DNA of 64,000 nucleotides from assembly GCF_030646155.1 (NCBI RefSeq), contig NZ_JAUTDN010000012.1, positions 1-64,000 of the forward strand, written 5' to 3'. This stretch comes from Conexibacter sp. CPCC 205762. Lineage in GTDB: Bacteria > Actinomycetota > Thermoleophilia > Solirubrobacterales > Solirubrobacteraceae. The position numbers and the translations under genes are program-made. Of the stretch, positions 778 to 34,858 are shown one piece after another; position 1 is the stretch's first letter; every line of letters begins with the position of its first letter. The notes below the pieces were generated by a model. It was not told the DNA's origin, did not search any database, and worked only from the letters and a program-made list of their open reading frames with translations.

Positions 778-3240
778 TCAGCGCGCGGTGCGCTTGGCGG
801 CCGCTCTCGCGACCCGCACCGTCGTGCTGCGTCTGTGCGTGCCGCCCTGCGAGCGGGCGGTCACCTCGACGCGGTATCTGCCGGCGCGCAGGGAGCGCGG
901 CAGTCTCACCGTCACCACACCAGCGCGCTTGGCGGTCACGGTGACCGTTCGCACGACGCGTCTGCAGCCGCCGTTCGTGCAGCTCTTCAGCGCGACGCGC
1001 AGTCTCGACGCGCCGTTGACGCGCACGCGCAGCGCGTTGCCTCGCAGCGCGATCGAGCTGACGCGGGCCGCCTGCGGGCGGGCCGGCGTTCTCGGCGCCG
1101 GGGGCTGGACGACCGGCGGGGTGAGGACCGGCGGCGTCACGACCGGCGGGTTCACGACCGGCGGCGTCGTGCCCGGCTGCTCCGGCTGTCTCTCTTCCGG
1201 CTGTCTCTCCTCGGGCTGTCTCTCCTCGGGCTGTCTCTCCTCCGGCGGCGCGACGTACGTGCGCGCCGTCAGCCACTGGTCACGCGGCAGCGGGCGGTCG
1301 ACGATGCGGGTCTCACCGATGCAGCCGAACCAGCCGTTGCCGGTCTTGCCGCCGCCCAGGCTGGAGCCGATCCGCCACGGCAGTCTGGTGCTGGCGAGGC
1401 CGAGCGTGTTGATCGAGTTGCGCAGCACCGGCGCGCCGTCGATGTTGAGCGTGGTGGTCGCCGTCAGCGGGTCGTTGACGACCGCGATGTGCATCCATCT
1501 GCCGGCCATGATCTCGCCGGACCAGGCGGCGCGGTCCTCGGCGGGCGAGGCGCTCGACTGGTTCCACTGGACCTCGCGCAGGTTCGAGATCGCCATCGTG
1601 AAGACCGGCTCGTCCCAGCTCCAGCCGGGGTTCGTCATGCCGGGCACGTCTCTGCGGTTGCCCTCGCGGGAGAGGCCGCCCATCCAGGCGTTGGCGGTCG
1701 CGCTCCAGTCGGCGTCGACCTTCACGAACGTCTCGATCGTGTAGCCGGTCGTGACGAAGTTGACGTCGTTGACCGCCGCGCCGAGCGGGGTGTTCATGTA
1801 GCTGACTCTTCTGCCGCCGTTGAGGAAGCAGGCGCTCGCCGGGCTCGACGAGAGCGCCGAGTGGTCGCTGGAGATCGACAGGTCGCCGGGCTGGACGTCG
1901 GCGACGTTGGCGTCGGTCGCCGGGTCGGCGCGTCGCATGTCGGCGCCGGCGGCGGAGAGGTCTCTCGCAGCGACCGCGCCGTAGGCGACGGGGCCGGCGG
2001 CGGTGCCGTCGAAGCGCCAGTGCGCGAGCGTGCCGTCGACTCTCGGGTAGTCGCTCGTGTCGTGCGGCGTTCTCGGCTCGGTCGCGCCGGGATCGGTGTA
2101 GCCGTCGAGGACCGCTCTCTTGGCGGCGGCGATCAGCGAGCTGTGGTCAGCCGCGGCGGGCGCCTGCGAGTCGGCGAAACGGGCGAAGCGCGCGTTCCAG
2201 TCGATCGGCATTCTGAGGTTCTCGTTCGGCCCGGTCTTCACGGCCTGGTCGAAGTCGGGGACGATCGTGTCAGCCGGCTTGAGGCGGACCCACGGCGAGA
2301 CGACGGCCGTGTCGATCGTGTTGTTGGTGAAGTCGAACTCCATCAGGCCGAGGTAGGCGTTGCCGCCCTGGTAGGCCATCTGGTAGTCCCACACGATCTG
2401 GTCGACGCTGTGACCGAAGTCGTTCGTCTTGCGCAGGTGCGCGGAGCCGTGGTTGTGGCCGTTGAGCGTCAGGAAGATCTGATCGTTGTCTCTGATCAGG
2501 TTGTCCCACAGCCGTCTGCCGGCGCCGGTCTCGACCGCGGTGACGCCGTCGGAGGCGATGTTGAGGATGTCGTGGACGGTCAGGATCGCCGGCAGTCTCG
2601 GATGCTCGGCGAGCACCTGGCGGGCCCACGCCATGCCTCTGTCGGACGGGTTCCAGCCGAGCGAGATGACGAGGAACTCACGCCCCTCGGCTCTGAACGT
2701 GTGCCACTCGTGCCAGCCGCTGGGATCACGCCCGCCGTCGCCCGGCTGGGCCTCCGCGCGCGAGGTCGGGAAGTATCTGAGGTAGTGCTCGGTCGAGGGG
2801 TCGCGCGACTCCTCGTCGTTGTTGCGGACGTCGTGGTTGCCGCTCATCATCGAGTACGGCAGCGCGGCGTCGTCGAGCGTTCTCATCGCCTCGTCGGCGA
2901 CTTCCCACTCCTGCGTCTGGTCGGCGCGGTCGACGACGTCGCCGAGGTGCGCGACGAACGGGATCTCCAGCTCGGCCTGTCTGTCGGCGAGCCACTCGGT
3001 CTGGACCGCGAACGGCTCGTTGCCGTAGCGTCTCATGAAGAGGTCGCCCTGGTTGGCGGAGGCGTAGCGCGAGTAGAACTGCGTGTCCGGCAGGACGCCG
3101 AAGAGGAAGCTCGAGCGGTCGCCTTCGGCCGCGGAGGCGGTCTCCGTCAGGAAGGCCGCCGAGGTGGGGGTGAGCGCGCACACAGCGGTGGCGGCGGCAA
3201 GGGCCAGCCGACCGCGTGAGCGGCGAGTCAATCGGTTCAC
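778..3240 (-). CDS. Exported metallophosphoesterase with LamG-like domain
   Basis: 820-residue secreted protein with a GTG start and a Sec-type signal peptide (about residues 1-38, ending ASA-AE). The calcineurin-like phosphoesterase domain shows PDTQFY (51-56), GDVVD (100-104), GNHD (134-137), VHD (222-224) and GHNHG (261-265), so the binuclear metal site looks complete. A LamG/concanavalin-like jelly-roll follows (about 405-660). Then comes a linker of four EERQP repeats and VVxPP repeats, and a basic beta-type C-terminal domain (about 715-820) shared with other exported proteins here. The likely role is hydrolysis of phosphoesters or phosphodiesters outside the cell; the substrate is unknown. 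AGA arginine codons are frequent. The nearest upstream gene on this strand is a cytoplasmic regulator 86 bp away, and a PHO-box-like repeat lies in that gap. Confidence 0.85.
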   Translation of the reverse strand: MNRLTRRSRGRLALAAATAVCALTPTSAAFLTETASAAEGDRSSFLFGVLPDTQFYSRYASANQGDLFMRRYGNEPFAVQTEWLADRQAELEIPFVAHLGDVVDRADQTQEWEVADEAMRTLDDAALPYSMMSGNHDVRNNDEESRDPSTEHYLRYFPTSRAEAQPGDGGRDPSGWHEWHTFRAEGREFLVISLGWNPSDRGMAWARQVLAEHPRLPAILTVHDILNIASDGVTAVETGAGRRLWDNLIRDNDQIFLTLNGHNHGSAHLRKTNDFGHSVDQIVWDYQMAYQGGNAYLGLMEFDFTNNTIDTAVVSPWVRLKPADTIVPDFDQAVKTGPNENLRMPIDWNARFARFADSQAPAAADHSSLIAAAKRAVLDGYTDPGATEPRTPHDTSDYPRVDGTLAHWRFDGTAAGPVAYGAVAARDLSAAGADMRRADPATDANVADVQPGDLSISSDHSALSSSPASACFLNGGRRVSYMNTPLGAAVNDVNFVTTGYTIETFVKVDADWSATANAWMGGLSREGNRRDVPGMTNPGWSWDEPVFTMAISNLREVQWNQSSASPAEDRAAWSGEIMAGRWMHIAVVNDPLTATTTLNIDGAPVLRNSINTLGLASTRLPWRIGSSLGGGKTGNGWFGCIGETRIVDRPLPRDQWLTARTYVAPPEERQPEERQPEERQPEERQPEQPGTTPPVVNPPVVTPPVLTPPVVQPPAPRTPARPQAARVSSIALRGNALRVRVNGASRLRVALKSCTNGGCRRVVRTVTVTAKRAGVVTVRLPRSLRAGRYRVEVTARSQGGTHRRSTTVRVARAAAKRTAR
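1184..1243 (-). repeat. 15-bp tandem repeat encoding EERQP
   Basis: Four 15-bp units in the linker of the metallophosphoesterase encode EERQP four times. They are followed on the coding strand by degenerate VVxPP units (about 1105-1170). The units differ at only one or two bases, so the array is probably length-variable. Confidence 0.8.
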
Positions 3241-3274
3241 CAGCCGAACCTATGTCTCGTCACTCACCGATCTC

Positions 3275-3301
3275 GTGACCGGGAAGTGAATAGAGAGTGA
3301 C
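3275..3301 (-). promoter_or_regulatory. PHO-box-like direct repeats with exact 11-bp phasing
   Basis: On the coding strand of the metallophosphoesterase three half-sites GTCAC (3297-3301), TTCAC (3286-3290) and GTCAC (3275-3279) start exactly 11 bp apart. They end 35 bp upstream of the GTG start. A fourth related element (GTTCAAC, near 3308-3314) lies one base out of phase. Actinobacterial PhoP boxes are 11-bp direct repeats of the type GTTCAYC, so PhoP-like control is plausible for this phosphoesterase. The assignment is by resemblance only. Confidence 0.45.
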
Positions 3302-3326
3302 TTAACTGTTGAACATGTACATCCGT

Positions 3327-4208: not shown

Positions 4209-4224
4209 CGCTCCAGTATGCCCA

Positions 4225-4260
4225 CGTTGCAACGGTCAGCCAGGGATCGCCGGTCCCTGG
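4225..4260. promoter_or_regulatory. Candidate operators in the MmyB-type regulator / SDR divergent promoter
   Basis: Two symmetric sequences lie in the roughly 100-bp divergent gap. One is the perfect 10-bp palindrome cgttgcaacg (4225-4234). The other is the inverted repeat ccaggga-N7-tccctgg (4240-4246 and 4254-4260). Either could be the binding site of the flanking XRE regulator. I cannot tell which from sequence alone. Confidence 0.4.
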
Positions 4261-4309
4261 ATGCACGCGCCCCTCCGCAACGGCGCGCAGGCGTCCCATC
4301 CTCAGCTCC

Positions 4310-5074: not shown

Positions 5075-5100
5075 ACGACGGCGGGGGCCTCGCCGTCGTC
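5074..5100. terminator. Bidirectional terminator hairpin
   Basis: A perfect 10-bp inverted repeat (gacgacggcg at 5074-5083, cgccgtcgtc at 5091-5100) with a 7-nt loop starts on the last base of the SDR stop codon. It lies 13 bp from the stop of the converging PhoX gene, and no poly-T follows. Confidence 0.6.
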
Positions 5101-5113
5101 GAGCGCACTCAGG

Positions 5114-7420
5114 TCAGGTCAGCTTGACCGTCGCCGCAATCGCGCGGCGGTTGCCGGCGGCGTCGACCGCGACGACCGACAGCTGCGCTCTCGTGTCTCT
5201 GCCGCGCAGCGCGCGCACGCGCAGCTTGCCGGTCGAGGTCAGTCTCAGCGTCAGCTCGGTGCGACCCGCTCTGAGCTGGCGCGTCGCGCGCCCGATCGTG
5301 ACGAGCTTTCTGCGCGATCTGCGCTTTCTGCCTCTGCCGGAGACGGTCGTCACCGTCAGCTCCAGCGCGATCGTCGCTCTGACCGGCTCGCTGACCTGGA
5401 GCGTCAGCGGCAGGCCGCCTCTGAGCAGCTGCGCCTGACGGCGCGTTCTCGGCACGGCGGCCAGTCTGAGGCTCGGCTTCGTTCTGTCGGCCGCTCTGCT
5501 CGGCGGCTGCTCGCCGCCCGGGGTCGGCGGCAGCGGCGGGATGACGTTCGGCGGTCTCTCCTCCGACGGCGGCGTGACCGGGTCGTCGACGTGCGTCGGC
5601 AGCTTCGTCACCGCGACCAGCGACGGGACCGGCGTCGAGGGGTTGAAGTTGATCGTCTTGTTGCCCTCGGGCCACCACGACGTGTACGTCGCGACGTTGC
5701 CGTAGACGCCGCCCGCGGCCGGCGTCTCCTCGCCCGGGTGCTGGACGTTGACGAACAGCGTCTCCTCGTCGGGCGTGAAGTACGGACCCGTGCCCTCGGA
5801 CTCGATCGGCATGTTGGCGAAGCGGAAGGCGACGCCGGCGTTGGGGCCCGTGCGCGGGATCATGAAGACCGCGTTGTTGCGGTGGTACTCGTAGTAGTCC
5901 TTTCTGCTCGTCGAGCCCGACAGCGAGCTGGACGAGATGTCCGTGACCACCCACAGGTTGCCGTGGTTGTCGAAGCAGAGGTTGTCGCAGCTGGAGAAGC
6001 CGCGCTCGCCGGCCGGGACGCCCGTGCCTCTGTCGCCGCCGCCGGCGTAGTCGGCCCACGTGAACTGCTTGTCGGAGCCGACCGCGGTCGGGTCGTTGCC
6101 GTTCTCGACCAGCTTGCGGATCGCGCCGTGGGCGTCGTTGACGTTGCTGTTGTTCGTGAACGAGATGAAGACCGCGCCGTCGCTGTTGACCTCGAGGTCC
6201 TCGGGCCGGTTGGTCGCGTGGTGGGCGAGGAACTCCGCGCTGCCGACGTTGGCGAGGATCCGCTCCTGGCAGTCCTCCAGCTCGGCCTCGGTCACCTCGC
6301 GCCAGAAGCCGACGCCGGAGGCGGGGCTGGTCGGGACGGTGTCGCCGTTTCTGGCGAAGGTGCGGCGGCCGTGGTCGAACCAGGCGATGTAGAGCTTGCC
6401 CTCCTCGAGGATTCTGAGGTTGTTGGCGCGGTCGCCCGCGACGAACTGGCGCGTCGAGACGAACTTGTAGACGCCGGCGTCGACCTTGTCGTCGCCCATG
6501 TAGAGCACGAACGGCTTGCCGGCGGCAGCCCGGAAGGCCGTGTTCTCGTGGCGGAAGCGGCCGAGCGCGGTGTGCTTGCGCGGCGTCCAGCTGGGGTCGT
6601 ACGGGTCGGTCTCGACGACCCAGCCGTACTTCGACAGCGTCGTGTGGTCGTACTCGGCGTTGGTCGGGTCGGCGGTCGTCGCGGTGCTGAGCGCCCAGCC
6701 GTACGTTCTCGCGTAGTCCTGGAAGTTCTCCTCGCAGGAGAGCGCGGTGCCCCACGGCGTGATGCCGCCGGAGCAGTTCGCGAGCGAGCCTCTGGAGGTC
6801 GTCCCGACTCTGGCGCTGCCCTTGAGCGGGCCGGTGAAGTCGCAGACCGGGTCGGCGCCCGTGATGCGGCGGTTGTATCTCGACGGCGAGACGACCTGCC
6901 ACAGGCCCTCGGCGTCCTTCTTGACGTGCAGGACCGAGTTGCCGACCGACTCCTGCTCCAGCTCGATCTGGGCGATCGTCTTGTTGGCCGCGGTTGTGAC
7001 GCCGTGCTGGAAGAACGGCGCCGGGTACTCGTGGTTGACGAACAGCAGCCCCTCGTCTCGCTTGCCCTCGAGCGCGAAGAAGGCGAGGAAGTCGTTGTTG
7101 TAGCCGAACCTCAGCTGGGTGCCGTCGGTGTTGGCGAATCTGTCGCCGTAGCCGATCACGACGTGGGCGCGGTAGCCCGCCGGCACCTCGAAGGCGTCGG
7201 CGCTGGAGGCGGCGATCGCGCTGAAGTCGGCGAACGGGTTGACGACCTCGGCGGCGTGCGCGACGCCGGCGTCGCCGAGCAGGTCGGCGATCCCCGGGGC
7301 GGAGAGGATCGCGTTGGCGGCGACGGTGCTGGCACCCGCGGCCGCCACGCCGCGGATGAAGTGACGCCGGGTCGAGCCCCCGGCGTCAGTGGGGGTGATG
7401 GGATCTGACATGCGCCGCAC
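5114..7420 (-). CDS. Tat-exported PhoX-family (DUF839) phosphatase with C-terminal beta domain
   Basis: 768 residues from GTG at 7420; an in-frame ATG at 7411 is an alternative start. The N-terminus has a twin-arginine signal (STRRHFIRGVAAAGAS, RR at 18-19, AHA-AE cleavage near 57). The PF05787/PhoX body (about 60-610) contains LLFVNHEY (126-132), TALSCEENFQDY (225-236), RPEDLE and DNLCFDNHGNLWVVTD, as expected for these Ca/Fe-dependent phosphomonoesterases. A Pro-rich linker then leads to a basic tail beginning DRTKP (about 660-768) that recurs in other exported proteins here. Its likely role is release of phosphate from organic esters outside the membrane. AGA codons are abundant, especially in the tail. 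Confidence 0.88.
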   Translation of the reverse strand: MRRMSDPITPTDAGGSTRRHFIRGVAAAGASTVAANAILSAPGIADLLGDAGVAHAAEVVNPFADFSAIAASSADAFEVPAGYRAHVVIGYGDRFANTDGTQLRFGYNNDFLAFFALEGKRDEGLLFVNHEYPAPFFQHGVTTAANKTIAQIELEQESVGNSVLHVKKDAEGLWQVVSPSRYNRRITGADPVCDFTGPLKGSARVGTTSRGSLANCSGGITPWGTALSCEENFQDYARTYGWALSTATTADPTNAEYDHTTLSKYGWVVETDPYDPSWTPRKHTALGRFRHENTAFRAAAGKPFVLYMGDDKVDAGVYKFVSTRQFVAGDRANNLRILEEGKLYIAWFDHGRRTFARNGDTVPTSPASGVGFWREVTEAELEDCQERILANVGSAEFLAHHATNRPEDLEVNSDGAVFISFTNNSNVNDAHGAIRKLVENGNDPTAVGSDKQFTWADYAGGGDRGTGVPAGERGFSSCDNLCFDNHGNLWVVTDISSSSLSGSTSRKDYYEYHRNNAVFMIPRTGPNAGVAFRFANMPIESEGTGPYFTPDEETLFVNVQHPGEETPAAGGVYGNVATYTSWWPEGNKTINFNPSTPVPSLVAVTKLPTHVDDPVTPPSEERPPNVIPPLPPTPGGEQPPSRAADRTKPSLRLAAVPRTRRQAQLLRGGLPLTLQVSEPVRATIALELTVTTVSGRGRKRRSRRKLVTIGRATRQLRAGRTELTLRLTSTGKLRVRALRGRDTRAQLSVVAVDAAGNRRAIAATVKLT

Positions 7421-7431
7421 CGTAGGCAGGC

Positions 7432-7453
7432 GTTCATGCCGAGTTGTTGCCGA
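7432..7453. promoter_or_regulatory. 11-bp direct repeat upstream of the PhoX gene
   Basis: GTTCATGCCGA (7432-7442) is followed immediately by GTTGTTGCCGA (7443-7453), identical at 9 of 11 positions. A weaker GAGTGAC lies at 7455-7461. The repeat sits just upstream of the PhoX start. GTTCA-type 11-bp repeats are the unit of actinobacterial PHO boxes, although the orientation is opposite to the gene. Confidence 0.4.
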
Positions 7454-7481: not shown

Positions 7482-9416
7482 CTACATGCTGTAGTTGTCT
7501 GATCGTCTCATCCGCTGGCCGGCGAAATCGACCCGCGGCAGCGTGACGCGCGTGACCGCCGTCGCGCGGGTGCTGTTGCCGGCGGCGTCGTCGGCCCAGA
7601 CGGTCAGCCGCACGCGGATCGTCTGGCCGTAGCCGAACGGGCCGCCGTCGCCGTACCAGAGCGCGTCGACCTTGTGCAGCCAGAGGACGCGCCGCTGGCC
7701 GGCGGCGAGCCGGAAGAGACCGGGGAAGAAGCCGTCGCCGTCGGTCCCGCGCGTGCGCACCTCCGCGCGCACGTAGAGGTCGCATGCCTCGTCGCAGCGG
7801 GCGTCGAAGCGGATGCTCTGGTCCGCGCGGGTTCTGCGGTTGAACGGCGGCAGCGGCTGGCGTCTCGGGAGCCGCAGCGTCAGGCGCGGGGCGGTGCGGT
7901 CGGCCGCCGGCTGCGGGCCGAACGCGACGGTGCGCAGGCGCGGGCGGATCGGCGCGCTGTAGTCGCCGCCGTCGGCGAAGGCGGTCTGCAGCAGCGAGAC
8001 GCGCGGGCTGCCGTCGGCGCCGAAGGCCGGCAGTGCGTAGTAGGTCCAGCGGCTGCCGCCGGAGAGCGGGCGCGGCCGCTGCCAGCCGCCGCCGGCGCTG
8101 CCGAGCGCTGCGTAGGGGGCCTGGAACTGCCCCGCGGGCACCTCGCGCCCGCCGCGCCAGGCGAGCAGCGCGCGGCCGTCGGGCGCGAGCGCGAGCCGCG
8201 GCTGGTCGACGCCGATCAGCAGACGGGCCGCCGGCGCCGTGGCGACGGTGACGGGCGCGCCGAAGGGAGCGGAGCCGTGCGGCCGCCCGACGACGTCGAT
8301 GCGCGCGAAGCCGCTGTCGCGACGCTCCGCCGCAAGCGCGACGAGCGCCGCGCCGCCGGGCGCGATCACGACGTCGGCGACCTCGGCGTCGTCGCTGACG
8401 ACCTGCGCGGTGGAGCCGGCGAGCGCGCTGCTGCTGGCTGTCGGCGGGGCCGAGCCGGCGAGCGCGCTGCTGCTGGCTGTCGGCGCGGCCGACCTGGCGC
8501 CGGCGCTGCTGCCGGTGATCGGCGAGAGCGGCCCGAAGCCGTCGCGCGCGCTGCCGCCGGCGACCTCGACGCCCGTTCTCGTGCGCAGCACGACGAGCGC
8601 CTCGCCACTTGGCGCGACCGCCAGCCGCGGCGGCTGCAGCACCTCGGCGGCGAGCCGCTGCGGTGCGCTCCAGGCGCCGCCGGCCGGACGGCGGGCGGTC
8701 CATGCCTCGTCGGGCGCGTCGCGCTCGCTGTTCGCCGGGCGGTGCCAGACGGCGACCGCGTCGCCCGCGTCGTCGATCCCGATCGCAGGCCCGTAGCCCT
8801 CGCCCGAGGAGGCGATTCCCGGCGCGCCGAGCGCGACCGGCGCGCCGAAGGCGCCGTCGGCATCGCGCACGGCGACCAGCGGCTGGACGCGCGTCTCGCT
8901 CAGGTACGGCTCCGCGTCGAGGCGCGTCTCTTCCAGCCAGCCGACGACGGCGGCGCCGCTCGCCGCGCGCGCGACCGCCGGCTCCCGGCCGTGCGCGCCG
9001 GGCAGGCGCGTCGCGGCACCGAGCTGGCCGCCGGGGCGCCGCTCTGCGACGACGATCGGCGCCGCGCGGTCGACATCCTCGGCCCAGGCGAGCGTGGCGC
9101 TGCCGTCCGCGCTGGCAGCGCCGACCGGGCAGCCGCCGAGGCCGGCCGCCACCTCCGGGCCGGGCGGGAGCGCCGCGGCGGCGGGACCGGCGACCGGCGC
9201 CGCCTGCACCCGCGGCTGACCGCCGTGGACGGCGCCGTACCAGGCGACCGCGTCGGCGGCGCCGAGCTCGACGGCGCAGGTGCCGAACGAGGTCATCCGC
9301 ACGGGCGAACGGTCGACCCACGGCTGCGGAAACAGCTCCGCGGCGGCAGCCGGCGCGGCGGGCGCCGCGAGCGCGGCCACGGCTGCGGCGATGGCGATCG
9401 CTCCGAAAACGTGCAT
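7482..9416 (-). CDS. Exported protein of unknown function, probable beta-propeller-like body
   Basis: 644 residues with a clear Sec signal peptide (1-26, PAAAA-E). The body consists of repeated short beta-type strings such as GEALVVLR, GGAALVALAAERR and GRALLAWRGGREVPAGQF. This spacing suggests a sialidase- or propeller-like fold without Asp-box certainty. A 13-residue unit (PTASSSALAGS) is duplicated near residues 310-335. The C-terminus carries DRTAPRLTLRL, a cysteine pair (ARCDEACDLYV) and WADDAAGNSTRA, matching the tail type of the neighbouring secreted proteins. It is separated from the LAL regulator upstream by 61 bp and may be co-transcribed. No catalytic motif was recognised. Confidence 0.75.
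   Translation of the reverse strand: MHVFGAIAIAAAVAALAAPAAPAAAAELFPQPWVDRSPVRMTSFGTCAVELGAADAVAWYGAVHGGQPRVQAAPVAGPAAAALPPGPEVAAGLGGCPVGAASADGSATLAWAEDVDRAAPIVVAERRPGGQLGAATRLPGAHGREPAVARAASGAAVVGWLEETRLDAEPYLSETRVQPLVAVRDADGAFGAPVALGAPGIASSGEGYGPAIGIDDAGDAVAVWHRPANSERDAPDEAWTARRPAGGAWSAPQRLAAEVLQPPRLAVAPSGEALVVLRTRTGVEVAGGSARDGFGPLSPITGSSAGARSAAPTASSSALAGSAPPTASSSALAGSTAQVVSDDAEVADVVIAPGGAALVALAAERRDSGFARIDVVGRPHGSAPFGAPVTVATAPAARLLIGVDQPRLALAPDGRALLAWRGGREVPAGQFQAPYAALGSAGGGWQRPRPLSGGSRWTYYALPAFGADGSPRVSLLQTAFADGGDYSAPIRPRLRTVAFGPQPAADRTAPRLTLRLPRRQPLPPFNRRTRADQSIRFDARCDEACDLYVRAEVRTRGTDGDGFFPGLFRLAAGQRRVLWLHKVDALWYGDGGPFGYGQTIRVRLTVWADDAAGNSTRATAVTRVTLPRVDFAGQRMRRSDNYSM
8413..8490. repeat. 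39-bp tandem duplication inside an exported protein gene
   Basis: Two 39-bp copies (8413-8451 and 8452-8490) are nearly identical, with mismatches only near the 3' end. They encode two successive 13-residue PTASSSALAGS-type units in frame. This is a recent in-frame duplication. Confidence 0.75.
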
Positions 9417-12303: not shown

Positions 12304-12473
12304 CCGCTTTCAAGCAAAGCACGCGGGCAGCGAACGCGCGAGGCGGTCGCACCCCCTTACGCGACGGCCCGGCGCCCCTGATGCGAAGCATGCACAGGCC
12401 GCGTAGAACCGTGTTCGTATTCGGTTGAACGTGCGCGTTGATGCGCGCTTCGCTTCGCAGGAGGAGAGAACAG

Positions 12474-26100: not shown

Positions 26101-26576
26101 AGGAGCCGGGCGGCGAGGAGCCGAACAGAGAGCAGCCCGGCGGCGAGCAGCCCGGCGGTCAGCAGCCGCTGCCCGGCGGCCAGACCCCGGTCACGAGAAC
26201 GCCCGACGTGCTGCAGCCGACGAGCCCGCTGCCGAGCGGCCCGGTCCGCACCGGCAAGGTCGCCGTCAAGGCGAGCGCGGCGAAGGCCGGCGCCGTCAGA
26301 GTGACGCTGTCGGTCGCGAAGGGCTCGACGGCCACCGCGACGGTCCAGCTGAGAGCGAAGCTGCGCGTGGGCAGGAAGACGGCGATGGTGCTCGTCGGCC
26401 GCGGCAGCGCGACGCTCGGCGACGGCGGCAGCAAGACGCTGACGCTGAAGCTCAACGCAGCCGGCAGAAAGGCGCTGAAGAAGGCCCGCAAGCTGAAGCT
26501 GCAGGTCGTCGTCTCCGCCAGAGACGCCGCCGGCAAGCTCGTCAGAACGACGAAGTCGCTCACGGTCAAGCGATGA
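23151..26576 (+). CDS. Exported phosphodiester-glycosidase (NAGPA-type) protein with degenerate metallophosphoesterase-like domain, copy 1
   Basis: 1141 residues; ATG preceded by AAGGAG. Signal segment about 20-42 (ALA-TP). The NAGPA/phosphodiester-glycosidase domain (about 50-410) shows AIGAVNGDAYDNG, EFYLVGREAGG and SAVNLGGGGSTTL. Two beta domains follow (about 420-610). A segment (about 620-880) with VRFVLLDSS, VVLTTRPTTDPLGD and GGFSGWTRFTVD resembles metallophosphoesterase domains fused to this family. However, the GD, GNH and GHxH metal ligands are absent. A PGGEQPGG linker leads to a basic tail (about 1035-1141) ending RTTKSLTVKR. It would act on phosphodiester-linked sugars outside the cell. 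Overlaps the next gene by 4 bp. AGA-rich. Confidence 0.82.
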   Translation: MAEARPHRPFAFARAPRRARGLVIGTVSFGLVALTAAPSALATPLSASETTEQLAPGIVLRTLRPLTSAGFVSADVLEVRMGSGGARLGFLTQPTTTFSVSGISTAPSALARSAGAIGAVNGDAYDNGNTFAPNHAQILGGALTTSGPPSETRAWPTIGVSRAGLGLLDLLTFGGTVTRTDATSARTSLRLDAVNQHNGYTSDDVAVFTDHWGAATRNRLGGSNPVEVRVGSDGRVISVTSGTPGTGAVAAGEFYLVGREAGGTALQQFQVGDSVELTYALRNADGLTPDFDFALGAHNSNAPLVRNGVVTAADDGAGAANRTSVGFSADGRTAYLAAVRTANLPDLGVFMQSLGAASAVNLGGGGSTTLSARTAGAANVTVRTGSERNENGAVGVFTASGDGTARNLLIRPAGSARPRVFAGGRLPLTATPLDAGWGPATLSTQVSWSASAGSVDASGVFTAPADGGDVTLSASAGSGVSGSATIKVLPKLQRITASQASYSFIGTSSDPTFVSLTGRDAEGYGAPVDAATTALDYDRAIVDVAVQSDGRLKITPKATGSTVLWAKLGDAAVSVALLVGSGELPTVIPPAELPDRMVATDGNATLQQWSFAALANSGIAAGGDAGAQAATRAVKAARAAGADLVLLSGVTAGASGQAAAARSALEAAGCDVIGDGESVPAGAPSGGTVPCVATAGIADRVGGSLSEWGAGFGAAWRGFDHRGVRFVLLDSSATQLRATSAQLRALATALDGAETDSSIHAVVVLTTRPTTDPLGDTSRALTDANEVALLRTLLRGFHDRSHKGVTLIDGESRIASVRRDEGVAEFGLPTVAGEPRGDVAAGGFSGWTRFTVDTEASDAGLDTIGADVRPFASQVAVDAADEVLVDEAVDVIADVEQGSRTVPLRYPASPRWSGSANLAIGSGAAALRDAKAAGKVALLDPASGELTGLAEGEVTVTATADGDLSEQPVAGSATVSVVAPEQPQEPGGEEPNREQPGGEQPGGQQPLPGGQTPVTRTPDVLQPTSPLPSGPVRTGKVAVKASAAKAGAVRVTLSVAKGSTATATVQLRAKLRVGRKTAMVLVGRGSATLGDGGSKTLTLKLNAAGRKALKKARKLKLQVVVSARDAAGKLVRTTKSLTVKR

Positions 26577-29500
26577 GCGCACGCCGCACCCGCACCGCCG
26601 TCGTCGCCGTCACGCTGCTCGCCGCCTTCCCGGCGGCGGCGGTGACGGCGGCGCCGGCCGCGGCCGGGATCCTGCCGTCGCTGGACAGCAGCGAGCAGAT
26701 CGGTCCCGGCATGACCTACCGCCACGTGCAGTACCCGCAGGCGAGCGGCTGGGTCGACGCCTATCTGCTGACCGCCGACCTCGCGCAGAGCGGCGTCAGA
26801 ATCGACCTCGGCCACCCGCCGGTCGTCGCGCAGGGGATGGCGCTCAGCAGACAGCTCGCCAACGTCGGCGCGATCGCCGGCGTCAACGCCGACTTCTTCG
26901 ACATCAACAACTCGTACGCCTCGATCGGCTTCGAGGTCGCCGCCGGCGCGCTGCGCAAGACGGCCGCGCCGGAGGCGCTCAACCGCGACGCGTCGATCGT
27001 CACGAGCGCCGGCAGAGCGCTGATCTCGCAGCTCAGATTCAGCGGCACGGTCAGAGCGGGCGGCTCGACGCTCGCGCAGTTGAGCGGTGTCAACAGCCAC
27101 AGCGCGGCGAGCGGCGGGATCGTCGCCTTCACGCCGCTGTGGGGCACCTACTCGCGTGCGCGCGCCACCAACGGCGCCGGCGACACCGCCGAGGTGCTCG
27201 TGCAGAACGGCGTCGTCACCGCCGTCAGCAGCGGCACGCCCGGCTCCGGCGCGATCCCCTCCGACGGCTTCTACCTCGTCGGCCGCGAGGGCGGCGCGAC
27301 GACGCTCGACACGCTCCAGGTCGGCGACCCCGTCACGCTCGACTACGCGGTCGCAAGCGCGGCCGGCGACGACGTCCGGTTCGCCGTCTCCGGCGGCGCG
27401 CGGCTGGTCCGCGACGGCGTCCTGCAGTCGCCCGCCGGCAGCGAGGCCGGCGATCCGCTCAACCCCAACCCGCGCACCGGGATCGGCTTCGACAGAGACG
27501 GGCGCCGCGTCTACCTGGCAGTCGTCGACGGCCGCCGCAGCGGCTTCCCCGGCGTGCTCCAGAGCGAGCTCGGCAGACTGCTGCTCGACGCCGGCGCCTG
27601 GAACGCGCAGAACCTCGACGGCGGCGGCTCCAGCGAGCTGATCGCGCGTCCCGCCGGCTCCTCGTCGCTGGCGATCCGCAACGTCCCCTCCGACGGCCAG
27701 GAGCGCACCGACGCGAACTCCGTCGGCCTCTTCATCGCGCCCGGCGACGGCACCGCGAGAACGCTGCTGCTCGACCCCGACGGCGACGCGGCCCGCTCCT
27801 CCGGCGCGCCCGCGCGCGTCTTCGCGGGCCTCCAGCGGCGCTTCAGAGTCGCGACCGCGGTCGATGCCGGCTGGGGTCCGGCGACGTTGCCGGCGACGCC
27901 TGCCTGGAGCGCCAGCGGCGGCAGGATCGCGACCGACGGCAGACTGCGCGCGCCGGCCGGCTCCGGCAGGCTGACGGTCACCGCGACCGCCAGCGCCGCC
28001 AGCGGCAGCACGGCCGTGACGGTGCTCGACGCGCCGCGCACACTCGAGCCCTCCTCGCGCTCGGTCGCCTTCGGCACCGCTTCCAGCTCGCCCGCGAACG
28101 TGACGCTGAGCGGCCGCGACGCCGACGGCTTCACCGCCCCGCTCGACGCCGCCGACACGACCTTCACGTACGACAGAGCGGTCGTGACCGTGACGGCGGC
28201 CAGCGACGGCCGTCTGCGGATCACGCCGAGAGCGGCCGGCGCGACCGTCGTCGCCGTCAGCGTCGGCGACGCGAAGGCCGAGCTGGCGGTCACCGTCGGC
28301 TCGGCGAGAGCGCCGGCGATCGACGCCGCGCCGGTCGCCGACCGCCTCGTCGCCGCCGCCGGCGGCGCGCCGGCGGCGTGGAGCTTCGCCGCGCTGGCCG
28401 CGCCCGACATCGCCGCCGACTCCGGCGAGCGGGCTGACGCGACCGTCGCCGCGCTCGCGCGGATCCGCGCGACCGCGCCCGACTTCGTGCTCGTCAGCGG
28501 CGTGACTGAAAGCGGCGGTGACGGCCAGGCGCTGGCCGCGCGCGACGTGCTCAGACGCGGCGGCTGCCAGCTCGTGACAGCGGCGATCGATCCGCCGACG
28601 GCCTCCGCGGGCAGCGTCTCCTGCGTCGTGCTGCCGGGCGACGGCGATCGTCAGGGCGGCACGCTGTCGAGCACCTTCAACGCCTCCTTCGGGCCGGCGT
28701 GGCGGGTCTTCGACCACAAGCGCACGCGCTTCGTGCTGCTCGACTCCTCCGCCGGCACGCTGCTCGGCGACGCGGTCGCCCAGCTCGACGCGCTCGACGC
28801 GGCGCTCGACGGCGCGGTCTCCGCCAGCGGCGTCGACAACGTCGTCGTCGCGACCCACCGCCCGGCGGCCGATCCGCTCGGCGACGGCTCGCGCCAGCTG
28901 GCCGACCCGCGCGAGACGGCGCTGCTGGAGAAGGCGCTGGCCGGCTTCGCGCAGCGCAGCGACAAGCCGGTCGTGCTGCTGTCCGGCGGCGGCCGCAACG
29001 CCGCCGTGCGCCACGCCGACGGCGTCGCCGAGCTGGGTCTGCCCGCGCTCGGCAGCCCACGCGGCAGCGCCGCGACGGGCGGCTTCACCGGCTGGACGCG
29101 GCTCGCGGTCGACGCCGGCGCACCCGACGGCGTCGTCGCCGACGTGCGCCCGTCCGGCAGCGCGGTCGTGCTCGACGCGGCCGCCGAGGTCGCCGTCGAC
29201 GCGACGATCCCGCTCGCCGCGTCGCTGACGCAGGGCGATCGCACGGTGCCGCTCGCCTACCCGGTCTCGCCGCGCTGGGACGGCTCGGCCGAGCTGGCGA
29301 TCGGCAGCGGCGGGACCGCCCTGGCGGCGGCTCGCGCGGCCGGCAAGGTCGCGCTGCTCGATCCCGTCACGCGGCAGCTGACGGGCCTGCGCGCCGGCAC
29401 CGTCACGATCGCCGTCGAGACCGACGCGGCGAGCGGCACGCAGCCGCTGAAGGCCGCGCGGAGCGTGACGGTGACGGCCGCGACGACGCCGCCGGACGGC

Positions 29501-29929
29501 CCGCCGCTGGTCGGCGATCCCGGTCCGCAGCCGGGCCTCCCGACGCCGCCCGCGCCGCTGCCCGGCGGCGGCGCCGGCACGAAGCCGCCGGTGAGAACGG
29601 CGGCGCCGGCCGCGAGCATCCTCTCGCTGAAGGCGACCAGAGCCGGGTTCGCGATCGTGCTGCGCGCCCCCGCCGCCGGCCGCCTGACGGTCTCGGCGAC
29701 GGCGACCCCGCGCGGCGGCACGCGCGCGCTGAAGCTCAGCACGAGCAGCGCCCGCGTCCGCAAGGCCGGCAGGGTGACGGTGACGCTGAGAGCGAGCAGA
29801 CGGACGCGCGCGCTGCTCGCCGCCGGCAGAGGCGGCAGAGCGACGGTCAAGGCGCAGATCCGCTTCGTCACGGCCGACGGCCGTTCGCGCACGACGACGA
29901 AGAGCGTCGTCGTGCGCGTGAAGCGCTGA
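26573..29929 (+). CDS. Exported phosphodiester-glycosidase (NAGPA-type) protein, tandem copy 2
   Basis: 1118 residues, coupled to copy 1 by an ATGA overlap. Sec signal peptide 1-27 or so (AAAAG-I). The domain order is the same as copy 1. NAGPA domain: AIAGVNADFFD, GFYLVGREGG, QNLDGGGSSEL. Beta domains follow. The metallophosphoesterase-like segment has RFVLLDSSAG, VVVATHRPAADPLGDG and GGFTGWTRLAVD; one histidine that copy 1 lacks (THRP) survives but the other ligands are missing. Linker, then a basic tail (about 1010-1118) ending TTTKSVVVRVKR. The two proteins are clear paralogues that have diverged well beyond a recent duplication. AGA codons are frequent. It may be a cell-wall or teichoic-type polymer processing pair. 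Confidence 0.82.
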   Translation: MSARRTRTAVVAVTLLAAFPAAAVTAAPAAAGILPSLDSSEQIGPGMTYRHVQYPQASGWVDAYLLTADLAQSGVRIDLGHPPVVAQGMALSRQLANVGAIAGVNADFFDINNSYASIGFEVAAGALRKTAAPEALNRDASIVTSAGRALISQLRFSGTVRAGGSTLAQLSGVNSHSAASGGIVAFTPLWGTYSRARATNGAGDTAEVLVQNGVVTAVSSGTPGSGAIPSDGFYLVGREGGATTLDTLQVGDPVTLDYAVASAAGDDVRFAVSGGARLVRDGVLQSPAGSEAGDPLNPNPRTGIGFDRDGRRVYLAVVDGRRSGFPGVLQSELGRLLLDAGAWNAQNLDGGGSSELIARPAGSSSLAIRNVPSDGQERTDANSVGLFIAPGDGTARTLLLDPDGDAARSSGAPARVFAGLQRRFRVATAVDAGWGPATLPATPAWSASGGRIATDGRLRAPAGSGRLTVTATASAASGSTAVTVLDAPRTLEPSSRSVAFGTASSSPANVTLSGRDADGFTAPLDAADTTFTYDRAVVTVTAASDGRLRITPRAAGATVVAVSVGDAKAELAVTVGSARAPAIDAAPVADRLVAAAGGAPAAWSFAALAAPDIAADSGERADATVAALARIRATAPDFVLVSGVTESGGDGQALAARDVLRRGGCQLVTAAIDPPTASAGSVSCVVLPGDGDRQGGTLSSTFNASFGPAWRVFDHKRTRFVLLDSSAGTLLGDAVAQLDALDAALDGAVSASGVDNVVVATHRPAADPLGDGSRQLADPRETALLEKALAGFAQRSDKPVVLLSGGGRNAAVRHADGVAELGLPALGSPRGSAATGGFTGWTRLAVDAGAPDGVVADVRPSGSAVVLDAAAEVAVDATIPLAASLTQGDRTVPLAYPVSPRWDGSAELAIGSGGTALAAARAAGKVALLDPVTRQLTGLRAGTVTIAVETDAASGTQPLKAARSVTVTAATTPPDGPPLVGDPGPQPGLPTPPAPLPGGGAGTKPPVRTAAPAASILSLKATRAGFAIVLRAPAAGRLTVSATATPRGGTRALKLSTSSARVRKAGRVTVTLRASRRTRALLAAGRGGRATVKAQIRFVTADGRSRTTTKSVVVRVKR

Positions 29930-29952
29930 GCGGCGACCAGCCGCACCCGCCA

Positions 29953-29993
29953 CGCCCGCGCGCCGGCAGCCGCGGCATGGGAGCGCGCGGGCG
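29953..29993. terminator. Bidirectional terminator hairpin
   Basis: A perfect 11-bp inverted repeat (cgcccgcgcgc at 29953-29963, gcgcgcgggcg at 29983-29993) lies between the convergent ends of phosphodiester-glycosidase copy 2 and the second LAL regulator. The 19-nt loop contains gccggcagccgcgg. Confidence 0.55.
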
Positions 29994-30026
29994 ATGGGCG
30001 GCGCCGCAGGTCGCGGCGGCGGTCGC

Positions 30027-32981
30027 TCAGTCGGCGCGGAGCCTGTCGAGCGCCGGGCCGAGCTGGTCGCGGCCGGCGACGCCGAGCTTGCGGTAGACGT
30101 TGGTGAGGTGGAACTGGACGGTCTTCGGCACCACGACCGCCTCCGCCGCGATCTCCGCGTTCGTCAGCCCGAGCGCCGCCAGCCGCGCGATCCGCCGCTC
30201 GCTCGGCGTCAGCGCCGCCGGGCCCGAGGTCGCCGTGCGGCGCGGCCGCGCGCCGGTCGCCACGAGCGCCGCGCCGGCCCGCTCGGCCAGCACCGTCGCG
30301 CCCAGCTCGGCGGCCAGCGCCGCCGCCTCGCGCAGCGTCGCGCGCGCCGCGTCCGCGGCGCCGTCGTCGGCCAGCGCCGCGCCCAGCTCGACGAGCGTGT
30401 GCGCCCGGTCGAGCTGCGCCGGCGAGCCGGCGAGCACGGCGGCCGACTCGCGCAGGAGCGCGACGGGTGTCGTATCGGCGTCGGCGGCGTCGGCGGCGTC
30501 CGCGGGCGCCGCGCCGGCGTCCTCGCGGCCGAAGCCGTCCGTGTCCGCCCCCGCGACGAGCGCCTGCGTCCGCAGCGCCGCGCCGAGCGGTCGCGTCAGC
30601 TGCAGCGCGCGAGCGCTCGCGACCTCCTCGGCGACCAGCGCCCGCGCCCGCTCGCCCTCGCCGAGGCGCGCGAGCGCGAGCGCGGCCAGCGAGCGCCAGG
30701 GGCAGAACGGGTGGGTCGTCTCCATCGCGCGGATCAGCTCGCCGCAACGCTCGAACGAGGCCAGCGCCGCGGCCGCGTCGCCGCGCGCGAGCGCGACGCG
30801 CCCCTCGGCCTCCAGCAGCATCGCGTACGGGATCGAGCCGGCCCAGCGCTCGGCGGCGTCGGGCACGTCGAGCGCCGCCGCGACGGTCGCGAGGTCGCCG
30901 CGCTCCAGCGCCACGAGCGCGACGACGGCGCGCGCGGCCGGCTCGTACATCTGCCAGCCGGGCGTCGCCAGCGCCGCTCTCGCATCGGCGTCGGCGGCGG
31001 CGAGCGCGCCGCGGTAGTAGCGCGGCCAGGCGCGCAGGTAGGCGGCGGTCGCGCGCTGGTGGGCGGCGCCGTGGCGGTCGGCATGCTCGACGGCGGCGTC
31101 GAGCACGCGCTCGGAGTCCGCGAGCGCGTCCGACCAGGTCAGCGTCGCGGCGATCTGCGACAGCACGATCCCGTGCGTGTCCAGCTCGTCGAGGATGCGG
31201 CCGTCGGCCCAGGCGCGCAGCGCGGTCGCGATCGCGGTCGGCGGCGGCGCGCTGCGGATGCCCTGCTCCAATGCGACCTCTGCCAGCAGCGCCCGCTCGC
31301 CGCGCGTCTGCCCGTCGGCCGGCGTCTCCAGCAGCGGCGTGAGCCGCCGGTACGCCTCCGGCCGCAGGCTGGTCTCGAAGCGGGCGGCGCCGATGAAGCC
31401 GGCGCGCAGCTCGGCGGTCAGCTCGCGCGGCCCCTCCCCGTCCAACGTCACGAGCCCCGCGTCGAACGCCTCCGCCGCCTCCAGCAGGGCGCCGCGCGCG
31501 AAGCGGGTGCGGCCGAGCCACAGGAACGCCTCGGCGCGCTCCTCGCCGCGCAGGCGCCCGGCGGCATCGGCCAGCGTCGCCTCTGCCTCGCCGGCGCCGA
31601 CCGCGGCCTGCGCACGGCCGAGGTCGAGCAGCACCGCCGCCAGCTGCCAGTCGCTCGGTGGTTCCTCCAACGCCCGTCGCAGGTACGCGATCGCCGACTC
31701 CGGCGCGGCGCGGGCGCGGGCCTGCGCGGCCGCCTCGCGCAGCCGTTCGACGACCTCCGTGTCGCGCGCCGGCAGCGCCCGCAGCAGGTGCGCGGCGACG
31801 CGCTCGCGGTCGGCGCGGTCAGCCGCGAGCTGGCGTGCGGCGGCGGCGTGGAGGCGGCCGCGGCGGGCCGCCGGCAGGTGGTCGTGGAGCGAGGAGCGGA
31901 CGATCGGGTGAGCGAAGGCGAGCGGCTCGACGCCGGCGAGGATCCCCGCCGCCAGCAGCCGGTCGGCGGCGGAGGCGGCGCTGTCGAGGTCGGCGCCGGC
32001 GAGCCGCGCCGCCTGCCGCAGCGTCGCCCCGTCGCCGAGCACCGCCGCCATCCGCGCCAGCTCGCCGGCGAGCGGCGGCAGCCGCGTCAGCTGCGCCTCG
32101 ACGTAGCGCGCGATCGTCTCGACGCCGGCGAGGTCGCCCGCTCCCGCGCCGCCCGCTCCCGCGCCGGCCGCAGTCGCGCCTCTCCCGTCCTCCCCGGCGG
32201 CCGCCACATCTCGCAGCAGCGCCGTCATCAGCAGCGGGTTGCCGCCGCTGGCGGCGGCGCAGGCGTCGAGGAACGAGCGCGGGGCGCCGGCGCGGCCCAG
32301 CTCGGCGGCGAGCGCGGTCAGCGCGGTGGCGTCGAGCGGGCCCAGCTCGAGCACGATCGCCGGCGGCGCGACGCGGAACCGTTCGAGCGCGTCGGGGTCG
32401 GTCGGCTGCTCGCCGGCGCGCAGCGCCGCGACGACGACGAGCGGATGGCGCGCGGCACGCGCGGAGAGGTGGGCGAGCGCGGCGAGCGTGCCGCGATCGG
32501 CCCACTGCACGTCGTCGACGACGACCAGCAGCGGCTGCGCGGCGGCCGCGTTCGCGAGCAGCCGGTAGGCGCCGTGGGCGTAGCGCTGAGCGGCGTCGGC
32601 CGGCAGCGGCCCCGGCGCCGGCCGCAGCAGCGGCAGCACCAGCGCGGCACCGCCGGCGAACAGCCCGGCCCCCGCGCCGCCGCCTGCACCCGCCCCGCCC
32701 ACCGCCTCCTCCGCGAGCGGCGCGATCAGCTCCAGCAGCGTCCCGAAGGCGGCATCGGTCGTCAGCGGGTCGCCGGTCGCGGTCAGCGTGCGGGCGCCGG
32801 TGCGGCGGGCGATCTCCTCCAGCTCGCGCAGCAGGCGCGACTTGCCGATCCCGGCGGCGCCGACGACGAGCGCGTGGCTGCCGCCGCCGCGCGACGCCTC
32901 GTCGAGCAGCTCGACGAGCAGGTCGAGCTCGCGGTCACGGCCGAGCAGCGGCACGTTGTCGGGACGGCCGAGGACGCTCAT
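30027..32981 (-). CDS. LAL-type LuxR-family transcriptional regulator (second copy of the architecture)
   Basis: 984 residues from the ATG at 32981 (MSVLGRPDNVPLLGRD); longer frames upstream lack homology. Walker A GAAGIGKS is at 41-48 and Walker B VVVDDVQWAD lies further on. Then comes a long TPR-like helical body and a C-terminal LuxR helix-turn-helix with LTPSERRIARLAALGLTNAEIAAEAVVVPKTVQFHLTNVYRKLG. It diverges from the exported HAF-repeat gene and probably activates it. A GAGAGGAGAG low-complexity stretch interrupts the body. It belongs to the same family as the regulator at 9478-12303 but the sequence similarity is modest. Confidence 0.92.
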   Translation of the reverse strand: MSVLGRPDNVPLLGRDRELDLLVELLDEASRGGGSHALVVGAAGIGKSRLLRELEEIARRTGARTLTATGDPLTTDAAFGTLLELIAPLAEEAVGGAGAGGGAGAGLFAGGAALVLPLLRPAPGPLPADAAQRYAHGAYRLLANAAAAQPLLVVVDDVQWADRGTLAALAHLSARAARHPLVVVAALRAGEQPTDPDALERFRVAPPAIVLELGPLDATALTALAAELGRAGAPRSFLDACAAASGGNPLLMTALLRDVAAAGEDGRGATAAGAGAGGAGAGDLAGVETIARYVEAQLTRLPPLAGELARMAAVLGDGATLRQAARLAGADLDSAASAADRLLAAGILAGVEPLAFAHPIVRSSLHDHLPAARRGRLHAAAARQLAADRADRERVAAHLLRALPARDTEVVERLREAAAQARARAAPESAIAYLRRALEEPPSDWQLAAVLLDLGRAQAAVGAGEAEATLADAAGRLRGEERAEAFLWLGRTRFARGALLEAAEAFDAGLVTLDGEGPRELTAELRAGFIGAARFETSLRPEAYRRLTPLLETPADGQTRGERALLAEVALEQGIRSAPPPTAIATALRAWADGRILDELDTHGIVLSQIAATLTWSDALADSERVLDAAVEHADRHGAAHQRATAAYLRAWPRYYRGALAAADADARAALATPGWQMYEPAARAVVALVALERGDLATVAAALDVPDAAERWAGSIPYAMLLEAEGRVALARGDAAAALASFERCGELIRAMETTHPFCPWRSLAALALARLGEGERARALVAEEVASARALQLTRPLGAALRTQALVAGADTDGFGREDAGAAPADAADAADADTTPVALLRESAAVLAGSPAQLDRAHTLVELGAALADDGAADAARATLREAAALAAELGATVLAERAGAALVATGARPRRTATSGPAALTPSERRIARLAALGLTNAEIAAEAVVVPKTVQFHLTNVYRKLGVAGRDQLGPALDRLRAD

Positions 32982-33000
32982 GCGCCGACATTCTGGCGCG

Positions 33001-33010
33001 TTTGCGCAAA
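33001..33010. promoter_or_regulatory. Palindrome in the LAL / HAF-protein divergent promoter
   Basis: TTTGCGCAAA is a perfect 10-bp palindrome in the 86-bp gap between the LAL regulator start and the HAF-repeat protein start. It sits 58 bp upstream of the latter. It is a candidate binding site for the LuxR domain; no transcript start is known. Confidence 0.35.
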
Positions 33011-33067
33011 AGACTGGGAGGGGGTCCAGTGTGAGGTCAGTGCACCGGCCTTTAGCGTCGCCGCTCG

Positions 33068-34858
33068 ATGACTGCCGCCGCCCGCCTCCGCGCGCTCGTC
33101 TGCGCTCTGATCGCCGCCGCCGCGCTCGCGCTGGCCGCATCTCCCGCCTACGCCGGCGACTGGACCGTCGCCGAGATCACCGGCCCGCCCGGCACGAGAT
33201 GGATCCAGCCGACCGCGGTCAACATCAACGGCGTCGTCGTCGGCCGCGCGTACTTCCCCGGGCGCGGCGACATGACCCCGTTCCGCTGGGAGAACGGCAC
33301 GATGGTCGAGCTGGCGACGACCGAGGGGATCGCCTACGACGTCAACGACAGCGGCGTGATCGTCGGCCGCCTCGGCGACAACGGCGCCGTCTGGACCGGT
33401 TCGCCGCCGGCGCTCGGCCTGACCGCGAGAAACATCGCCGGCAGATACGGCTCGGCCGCCCACGGCATCAACGCCAGAGGCACGATCGCCGGCTCCGCGG
33501 GCGACGCCGGCAACATCCCGCCGCCGTGGAACAACGGCAGAAGCACCTACGACAACCGCTTCCCGGCGTTGACGACCGGCGGCGGCTGGTCGCGCCTGCC
33601 GATGCCCGACGTCATAACCGACAGAGGCGCGACGATCATCGGCGGCGACGCGATGAAGGTCAACGACAACGGCCTGATCCTGATCGGCGGGATGAACATG
33701 AGCGGCCGCCCGCGCCTCTCCAGCGGTGGCGTCGCCGGCCCGATCTTCGACATGGTCGCCGGCAACCAGGGCTTCAACAACAGCGGCCAGATCGCCGGCC
33801 GCACGCTCTTCAGCAGCCCCACCACCGATCCGTTCTCGGCGCGCGTCTGGGACGGCACGCAGTACGTCGACGTCGGCGCGGGGCAGCCGAGATCGCGTGC
33901 GAACGCGATCAACGACAACGGCTGGATCGTCGGCCGCGCCGGCACCGAGGACTACCAGGCCGAGTACAGACAGCTCGGCAACGCCTGGCTGTGGCGGCTC
34001 GACGAGGCGCCGGTGCCGCTCGCGCAGCTGGGCCCGGCCGGCTGGTCGTACGCGAACGCGACCGACGTCAACAACGACGGCGTGATCGTCGGCGTCGGCC
34101 AGCACGGCGGCGTCGAGATGGGCTTCATGATGACCCCGGCGGCGATCGCGCACAGACTCAGCGGGACCGTCTGGGACGCGAACGGCGGCCCGGTCGCGGG
34201 CGCGCAGCTGCGGATCGTCGGCGCCGCCGGCCAGGAGATCACGCCGGCCGTCACGACCGGCGCCGACGGCAGATACAGCACGACGCTGCTGCGCGGCGAC
34301 TACCTCGTCACGGTCCTGCCCGCGGGCAGATACGTGCCCGACGCTGGCGCCGGCTGCGCGCTGCTGGGCGCGACCTGCGGGCTCGGCCTGAGCAGAAACC
34401 GCGTCGTCGACTTCTACGCGATCCCCTCGATCCCGCCACCGCCGCTCCCGCCGGGCAGAGACAGCGGCAGAAGCGGCAGCGCCGACAGAACCGGTCCGGC
34501 GATCAGAGGCCCGAAGGCCGGCACGACCGTCGCGCTGTCCAGAAGAGGCGCCGTCGGGATCGGGCTCGGGCCGTTCGCCGAGCCGGTCAGCGGCACGGTC
34601 GTGCTGCGCGAGGCGGCGGCCAGAAGAGGGAGAGCGAGAAGACGCGCGCTCGCGGCGGCGAAGCAGCCGGCCCCGCTCGGCCGCGCATCGTTCAAGGCGA
34701 GAGCGAGCAGAAGGGTCGTCGTGACGATCAGACTGAGCCGCGCCGCGAAGAGACGCGTCAAGCAGCGCAGACGCCTCGCGGCTGTCGTCGTCGTGACCGC
34801 GCGTGACGCCGCCGGCAACGCCACGACGAAGAGCTTCAGCGTCACGCTCAAGGGCTGA
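33068..34858 (+). CDS. Exported HAF-repeat protein with carboxypeptidase-regulatory-like domain
   Basis: 596 residues. Sec signal peptide 1-29 (AYA-GD). At least six HAF-type repeats (about 50-345) share a pattern of hydrophobic, Asn, Gly, Ile/Val, Gly, for example AYDVNDSGVIVG, AHGINARGTIAG, ANAINDNGWIVG and ATDVNNDGVIVG. A CarboxypepD_reg-like beta sandwich (LSGTVWDANGGPVAGAQLRI, about 360-430) follows, then a PPPPLPPG linker and a strongly basic tail starting DRTGP (about 470-596) ending TTKSFSVTLKG. No enzymatic motif; a surface adhesion or matrix role is possible. By hand count 28 of 55 Arg codons are AGA, including consecutive pairs in the tail. Confidence 0.78.
   Translation: MTAAARLRALVCALIAAAALALAASPAYAGDWTVAEITGPPGTRWIQPTAVNINGVVVGRAYFPGRGDMTPFRWENGTMVELATTEGIAYDVNDSGVIVGRLGDNGAVWTGSPPALGLTARNIAGRYGSAAHGINARGTIAGSAGDAGNIPPPWNNGRSTYDNRFPALTTGGGWSRLPMPDVITDRGATIIGGDAMKVNDNGLILIGGMNMSGRPRLSSGGVAGPIFDMVAGNQGFNNSGQIAGRTLFSSPTTDPFSARVWDGTQYVDVGAGQPRSRANAINDNGWIVGRAGTEDYQAEYRQLGNAWLWRLDEAPVPLAQLGPAGWSYANATDVNNDGVIVGVGQHGGVEMGFMMTPAAIAHRLSGTVWDANGGPVAGAQLRIVGAAGQEITPAVTTGADGRYSTTLLRGDYLVTVLPAGRYVPDAGAGCALLGATCGLGLSRNRVVDFYAIPSIPPPPLPPGRDSGRSGSADRTGPAIRGPKAGTTVALSRRGAVGIGLGPFAEPVSGTVVLREAAARRGRARRRALAAAKQPAPLGRASFKARASRRVVVTIRLSRAAKRRVKQRRRLAAVVVVTARDAAGNATTKSFSVTLKG

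Follow-up and report, generated by a model that had tools for sequence, protein, structure and literature searches.

Eight exported proteins with unrelated bodies, encoded within 34 kb of one genome, almost certainly end in copies of a single C-terminal domain of ~95–140 residues. The domain is unnamed in the libraries searched and is nearly restricted to one lineage. Its preferred functional reading, to which we give about an even chance, is that of a sortase-independent electrostatic surface-retention module. The window, meaning the whole stretch of DNA analysed, is the first 64 kb of contig C15 in a genome of 6.10 Mb and 116 contigs, and its GC content lies between 68 and 80% in 2-kb steps with a mean of 73%. 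The eight proteins and their tails sit where the original prediction had placed them, and the bodies are unrelated, as it had claimed: metallophosphoesterase (MPE) with laminin-G, PhoX, an unassigned propeller-like protein, GH106, PD40/TolB, two NAGPA paralogues, and HAF repeats. The tails are listed below with their scores against an HMM built from 79 tails outside the window (the 79-tail HMM).

778–1077, minus strand: tail of the MPE/laminin-G protein (gene 778–3240, minus), the most divergent member; 18.5 bits
5114–5488, minus strand: tail of PhoX (gene 5114–7420, minus), which has a Tat signal; 38.2 bits
7482–7901, minus strand: tail of the propeller-like protein (gene 7482–9416, minus); 30.7 bits
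15543–15896, plus strand: tail of the GH106-like protein (gene 12438–15896, plus); 47.1 bits
21553–21846, minus strand: tail of the TolB/PD40 propeller protein (gene 21553–22908, minus); 26.5 bits
26241–26576, plus strand: tail of NAGPA paralogue 1 (gene 23151–26576, plus); 67.0 bits
29588–29929, plus strand: tail of NAGPA paralogue 2 (gene 26573–29929, plus); 53.0 bits
34484–34858, plus strand: tail of the HAF-repeat protein (gene 33068–34858, plus); 46.4 bits

Three bodies are identified by their matches to PhoX in Pfam (1.1e-100), Glyco_hydro_106 (2.3e-28), and the HAF repeats of TIGR02913 (1.8e-6). Two large AAA_16/LuxR-type regulators (9478–12303 and 30027–33140, both minus strand) lie among the genes for tail proteins. 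Eight carriers in 34 kb (778–34858) represent a high local density compared with 52 matches (E ≤ 0.001) in 6.1 Mb, an enrichment that is biased by the seeding of the profile here.

The claim of one domain common to the eight protein ends is borne out by the 79-tail HMM, which all eight match at 18.5–67 bits with none of 500 shuffles of each tail scoring as high. When the 476 ORFs of the window were scanned with it, only these eight proteins fell below an i-E of 0.9. The MPE tail scored 9.5 bits in that scan and is missing from a stricter run of it, and the match of the propeller tail was split in two pieces; by score, these two are the weakest members. The DRT(K/G/A)P start reported for three tails was recovered as DRTKP in PhoX, with VDAAGN close to the end, as DRTGP in the HAF protein, with RDAAGN close to the end, and as DRTAP in the propeller protein, which also has CDEAC and DDAAGN and a divergent middle. 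Pairwise similarity from tail to tail is weak. As a single-sequence query the HAF tail found only three places, itself among them, and profiles were therefore needed. A profile of the eight tails finds 28 places in the own genome at E ≤ 1; with one made from 21 tails the number rises to 63 at that threshold, 52 of them at E ≤ 0.001, while reversed tail sequences used as a profile give no own-genome match at E ≤ 1. The sets differ in content: the smaller profile A2 lacks L034, L039 and the tail of the propeller protein; the first model, A7, omits the TolB, MPE and propeller tails and L166:3-311; profile A8 omits the MPE and propeller tails, L031 and others; and the 79-tail set omits L120, L129, L131 and L166:3-311 and includes three genes twice.

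The own genome carries about 50 copies of the domain or more, on roughly a dozen unrelated kinds of exported protein. Outside the window there are 56 matches at E ≤ 1, of which 49 were fetched and examined; one of the seven others is an inner copy in the ORF of L114, and one fetched ORF, L150, has no match with the 79-tail HMM. The match ends at most 26 residues from the stop codon in 47 of the 49 fetched ORFs and in 28 of 28 loci of relatives. The exceptions are L120 and L129, whose ORFs continue for ~120 residues past the domain match; the last 120 residues of L129 reach only 7.6 bits, and it is counted as an exception. With the tandem inner copy of L114 they make up the true internal copies in this genome, and in the relatives' loci L096 and L097 another copy directly precedes the last one. 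Besides the bodies found in the window, carriers include trypsins, PKD proteins, PD40 propellers, a second PhoX, HtaA proteins, amidases, a sedolisin, GSDH, a pectate-lyase-like protein, and Big_3_5-repeat proteins. A signal-peptide rule (a heuristic, not SignalP, applied to a set without L131, L134 and L141) is passed by 42 of 45 carriers, a count inflated by the picking of start codons in favour of a signal-like N-terminus. The three that do not pass are PhoX with its Tat motif, the propeller protein with an uncharged signal sequence, and L121 with an ambiguous start; one signal sequence, that of L140, is lipobox-like. The linker before the tail is Pro-rich in 30 of 45 proteins.

The tails are strongly basic. 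Their pI is at least 11 in all 47 proteins of the charge set (without L131), compared with a median of 4.7 for the bodies; their median net charge is +21.8 per 100 residues, and 36 of the 47 contain only 0–2 acidic residues. In the composition set of 45 proteins (without L120, L129 and L131), the tail-to-body ratios are 7.1 for Lys, 2.8 for Arg, 0.12 for Asp, and 0.23 for Glu. The Lys enrichment is not an effect of base composition because it runs opposite to a GC content of 73%, and the size of the charge effect is partly selected, since profile searching with basic tails favours basic matches. Of the 45 tails, 32 finish on a basic residue (Arg in 29, Lys in 3; binomial P 7.6e-12). Trp is nearly absent (0.24%). 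Two cysteines occur in 18 of 45 tails (MPE, propeller, L109, L112, L114, L115, L122–L125, and others), which suggests a disulfide-bearing subtype. Consistent with the earlier remark that no standard anchor is visible, LPxT[GA] is found in the last 70 residues of none of the 47 proteins, and none of the 47 tails has a transmembrane stretch, with a maximal 19-residue mean hydropathy of 1.38 against a cut-off of 1.6. One of the 79 tail rows (L136) contains L[AP]xTG, without a hydrophobic helix.

AF2 models were obtained for two divergent tails, and both point to an Ig/FnIII-like sandwich of seven strands in two sheets. The tail of NAGPA paralogue 1 (pLDDT 85.4, pTM 0.72) is modelled with seven strands and one helix, and the MPE tail (pLDDT 86.1) with seven strands and no helix between strands 5 and 6. 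In the usual predicted layout a short helix stands between these two strands, and a short basic end often follows the sandwich. Together with the homology controls, these models agree with the beta-type core originally proposed; neither different folds nor mere low complexity was found when tested, the fold being predicted for two of the eight tails. On re-examination of the Foldseek ranking, many unrelated proteins score alike, and the surface and biofilm proteins GbpA and RbmA in the fold list are therefore no evidence. A sequence search of solved structures with the tails gave a best E of 0.23.

Scans of 21 tails, a set without that of the propeller protein, brought up no fitting curated family in Pfam or NCBIfam. 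Judged by E value, 24 Pfam families appear at E ≤ 1, each in one tail, the best being DUF4469 at 2.5e-5; in NCBIfam, 11 families appear at E ≤ 0.1, each again in one tail, with a best value of 0.0014. DUF4469, Big_13 and FlgD_ig share the Ig-like fold with the tails and show weak similarity to the MPE tail, but they stay under their curated cut-offs in the whole MPE protein (19.1 bits for DUF4469, cut-off 22.6), and each occurs in just one of the 21 tails at E ≤ 1. Within the tails of 40 further carriers there is no Pfam match at E ≤ 0.01, and no description of this domain turned up among the open-licence PMC titles and abstract openings listed.

Members of the Thermoleophilia, Solirubrobacterales included, are soil bacteria. 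The domain is near-universal in Solirubrobacterales, patchy in the class and rare outside it, in line with the lineage specificity that had been suggested. Sampling at class level gave matches in 91 of 200 genomes (E ≤ 0.001). Of the 63 genomes listed for the same order, 62 are among them; the remaining 29 are from outside the order, a count that assumes the same of 89 unlisted genomes without a match, as the order of the list suggests. Among 31 near relatives, two (G011 and G020) have no match with profile A2, and both match with A8. In a phylum-level sample, in which the other actinobacteria serve as a rough composition control, 17 of 296 genomes match at E ≤ 1e-4, 15 within the class and two outside it. 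One of the latter (G041) is partial, begins at a stop codon and looks like chance; the other (G219) has a real-looking C-terminal end. The absences are soft, because only the best 16 candidates per genome were scored in the phylum search and the best 23 in the class search.

Surface retention is the preferred reading because nearly all carriers have signal peptides and the tail is C-terminal, positively charged, and apparently a replacement for an anchor in HtaA proteins; in this indirect way, the original suggestion of surface attachment or export is favoured. We infer that carriers would be exported by Sec (by Tat for PhoX) and that the enzyme or propeller body would be held off on the linker, often Pro-rich. 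The cationic sandwich would then bind an anionic polymer of the envelope non-covalently, possibly a teichoic- or teichuronic-acid-like glycopolymer, and the acidic body would thereby be kept at the surface without a sortase. Several findings stand against this reading. An Ig/FnIII sandwich is generic and by itself silent on function, the anchor-replacement comparison draws on a single other genus, and some copies do not stand at the very end of the protein (L120, L129, and the tandem copies in L114, L096 and L097). Confidence in retention was also lowered slightly by the signal-favouring choice of starts and by further tail-less HtaA loci.

Non-covalent C-terminal retention has precedents. WxL, a wall-binding domain of low-GC Gram-positives (PMC5817068), resembles the tail in being C-terminal, of similar size (WxL lies within the last ~120–190 residues), carried by exported proteins and free of LPXTG, and its genes are often clustered, as are the eight carriers in the window. 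Non-covalent retention is demonstrated for WxL, whereas for the tail it is proposed. WxL is described from Bacillota, and the tail is found in Thermoleophilia. In addition, no Pfam WxL match was found at E ≤ 1 among 21 tails, and the tails have almost no Trp; one tail weakly matches WxLIP_HBD, a family other than WxL (E 0.079). The GW modules of InlB and Ami (PMC4010754) likewise mediate C-terminal non-covalent association with the wall, a role proposed for the tail, by binding lipoteichoic acid, and this anionic polymer is the anchor of InlB. In contrast to the tail, mostly a single predicted Ig/FnIII-like sandwich, GW modules are SH3-like, tandem and marked by a Gly-Trp dipeptide, and there is no GW Pfam match among the 21 tails.

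The HtaA proteins allow a comparison within one Pfam family. C. diphtheriae HtaA and ChtA have a presumed transmembrane helix at the C-terminus (PMC12494546). It occupies the same position as the tail in proteins of that family; such anchors are hydrophobic, whereas the tail is cationic, predicted to be beta, and devoid of a hydrophobic segment. The own genome and one congener encode nine tail-bearing HtaA proteins (L123, L124, L142, L209–L211, L214–L216) with ORFs of at least 777 residues, and L144 is a tenth. In one other actinobacterial genus, eight HtaA proteins spread over four genomes terminate in a hydrophobic helix with an Arg-rich end, at maximal 19-residue mean hydropathies of 1.92–2.36. 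The tail thus appears to occupy the place of the anchor, which supports surface retention. No hydrophobic-helix end is seen in two further HtaA ORFs from beyond the class (L233, L246). Within the class, 20 shorter HtaA loci, with ORFs of 658 residues at most, lack both the tail and any clear transmembrane end; anchoring is thus not obligatory for HtaA proteins. The own genome has 16 HtaA matches at E ≤ 0.001, and any HtaA occurs in only 12 of 120 class genomes. Sortase genes are matched in 17 of 21 genomes, with two matches in the own genome, and the lineage therefore also has a covalent route, a further point against the retention reading.

The tail could instead be a cationic substrate-binding module that holds environmental polyanions such as DNA, humic matter, pectin or clay and not the surface of the producer. 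This is unlikely: many carriers are hydrolases or phosphatases and the charge is strong, but the propeller and HtaA carriers have no evident shared substrate, the domain keeps to the C-terminus, and in HtaA proteins it seems to take an anchor position.

Another possibility is a sorting or export signal, in which the folded sandwich and its terminal basic residue would be read by a dedicated machine for secretion, attachment or trimming. The C-terminal domain of the type IX secretion system (T9SS) of Bacteroidota is likewise C-terminal and Ig-like, rides on many unrelated passengers, and often has a basic last residue. The tail shares each of these features, with Arg or Lys at the end in 32 of 45 proteins. 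However, no T9SS tail model (TIGR04183, which we take to be its accession) is among the NCBIfam matches of the 21 tails at E ≤ 0.1, the host has sortases and is taken to be an actinobacterium, carriers have ordinary Sec or Tat signals, tandem copies exist, and in L120 and L129 the domain lies ~120 residues from the end. SprA_N matched none of 21 genomes, and the control genomes were likewise silent. A sorting signal is quite improbable. In its widest and boldest form, this idea would make the folded cationic domain with its basic last residue a sorting code shared across Solirubrobacterales. Some machine of the envelope would read it and thereby deliver or attach ~50 different exported proteins in this species, and the code would in principle be an actinobacterial counterpart of the Bacteroidota type IX tail; we regard this as a long shot.

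Slightly less probable again is a plain Ig-like spacer, or a cap that stabilises the protein, which would bind nothing and whose charge would merely offset an acidic body. The generic fold, the acidic bodies and the weak DUF4469, Big_13 and FlgD_ig matches in the MPE tail agree with it. Against this, the other Ig-like repeats of the carriers (Big_3_5, PKD, I-set, He_PIG) lie inside the proteins and reach no more than 9.3 bits with the tail profile in 48 proteins (9.8 in L148), Lys is enriched sevenfold, and the domain is near-universal in one order. Finally, the notion that there is no single domain, only basic low-complexity ends produced by high GC, can be rejected with great confidence despite the high Arg/Ala/Val content and the weak pairwise identity, since shuffles and reversals fail, the tails are Lys-rich, the structure models are confident, and, of the 17 genomes matched in the phylum sample, only two come from beyond the class.

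No description of surface-protein retention in Thermoleophilia came up in searches of open-licence PMC papers. A single profile would be enough to annotate up to dozens of exported proteins in each genome whose ends are now unnamed, and it would offer a direct handle on how enzymes, heme-binding-type proteins and propellers might be displayed with no sortase motif. Should the tail bind the wall by charge, it would be a small display tag.

A substrate-binding-like family (L104, L161–L168) has no Pfam match in the body. Its relatives from named records were found through body patterns and not through the tail, and all eight have it; six further tail matches lie on neighbouring ORFs, in six loci. 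The sources of these relatives are Conexibacter sp. CPCC 206217, Solirubrobacter soli DSM 22325, and metagenome genomes of Solirubrobacterales and Thermoleophilia, on which basis the host is taken to belong to Solirubrobacterales. In the own genome, within the first 400 bases of contig C39, the short ORF L147 fuses a helix-turn-helix-like segment with the final third of a tail; a broken gene or an artefact of the assembly edge may explain it. One family locus, L163 (CAJCHW010000098.1), is labelled as a Chlamydiae bacterium; it carries the family and the tails as in the Solirubrobacterales loci and is possibly a misassigned contig.
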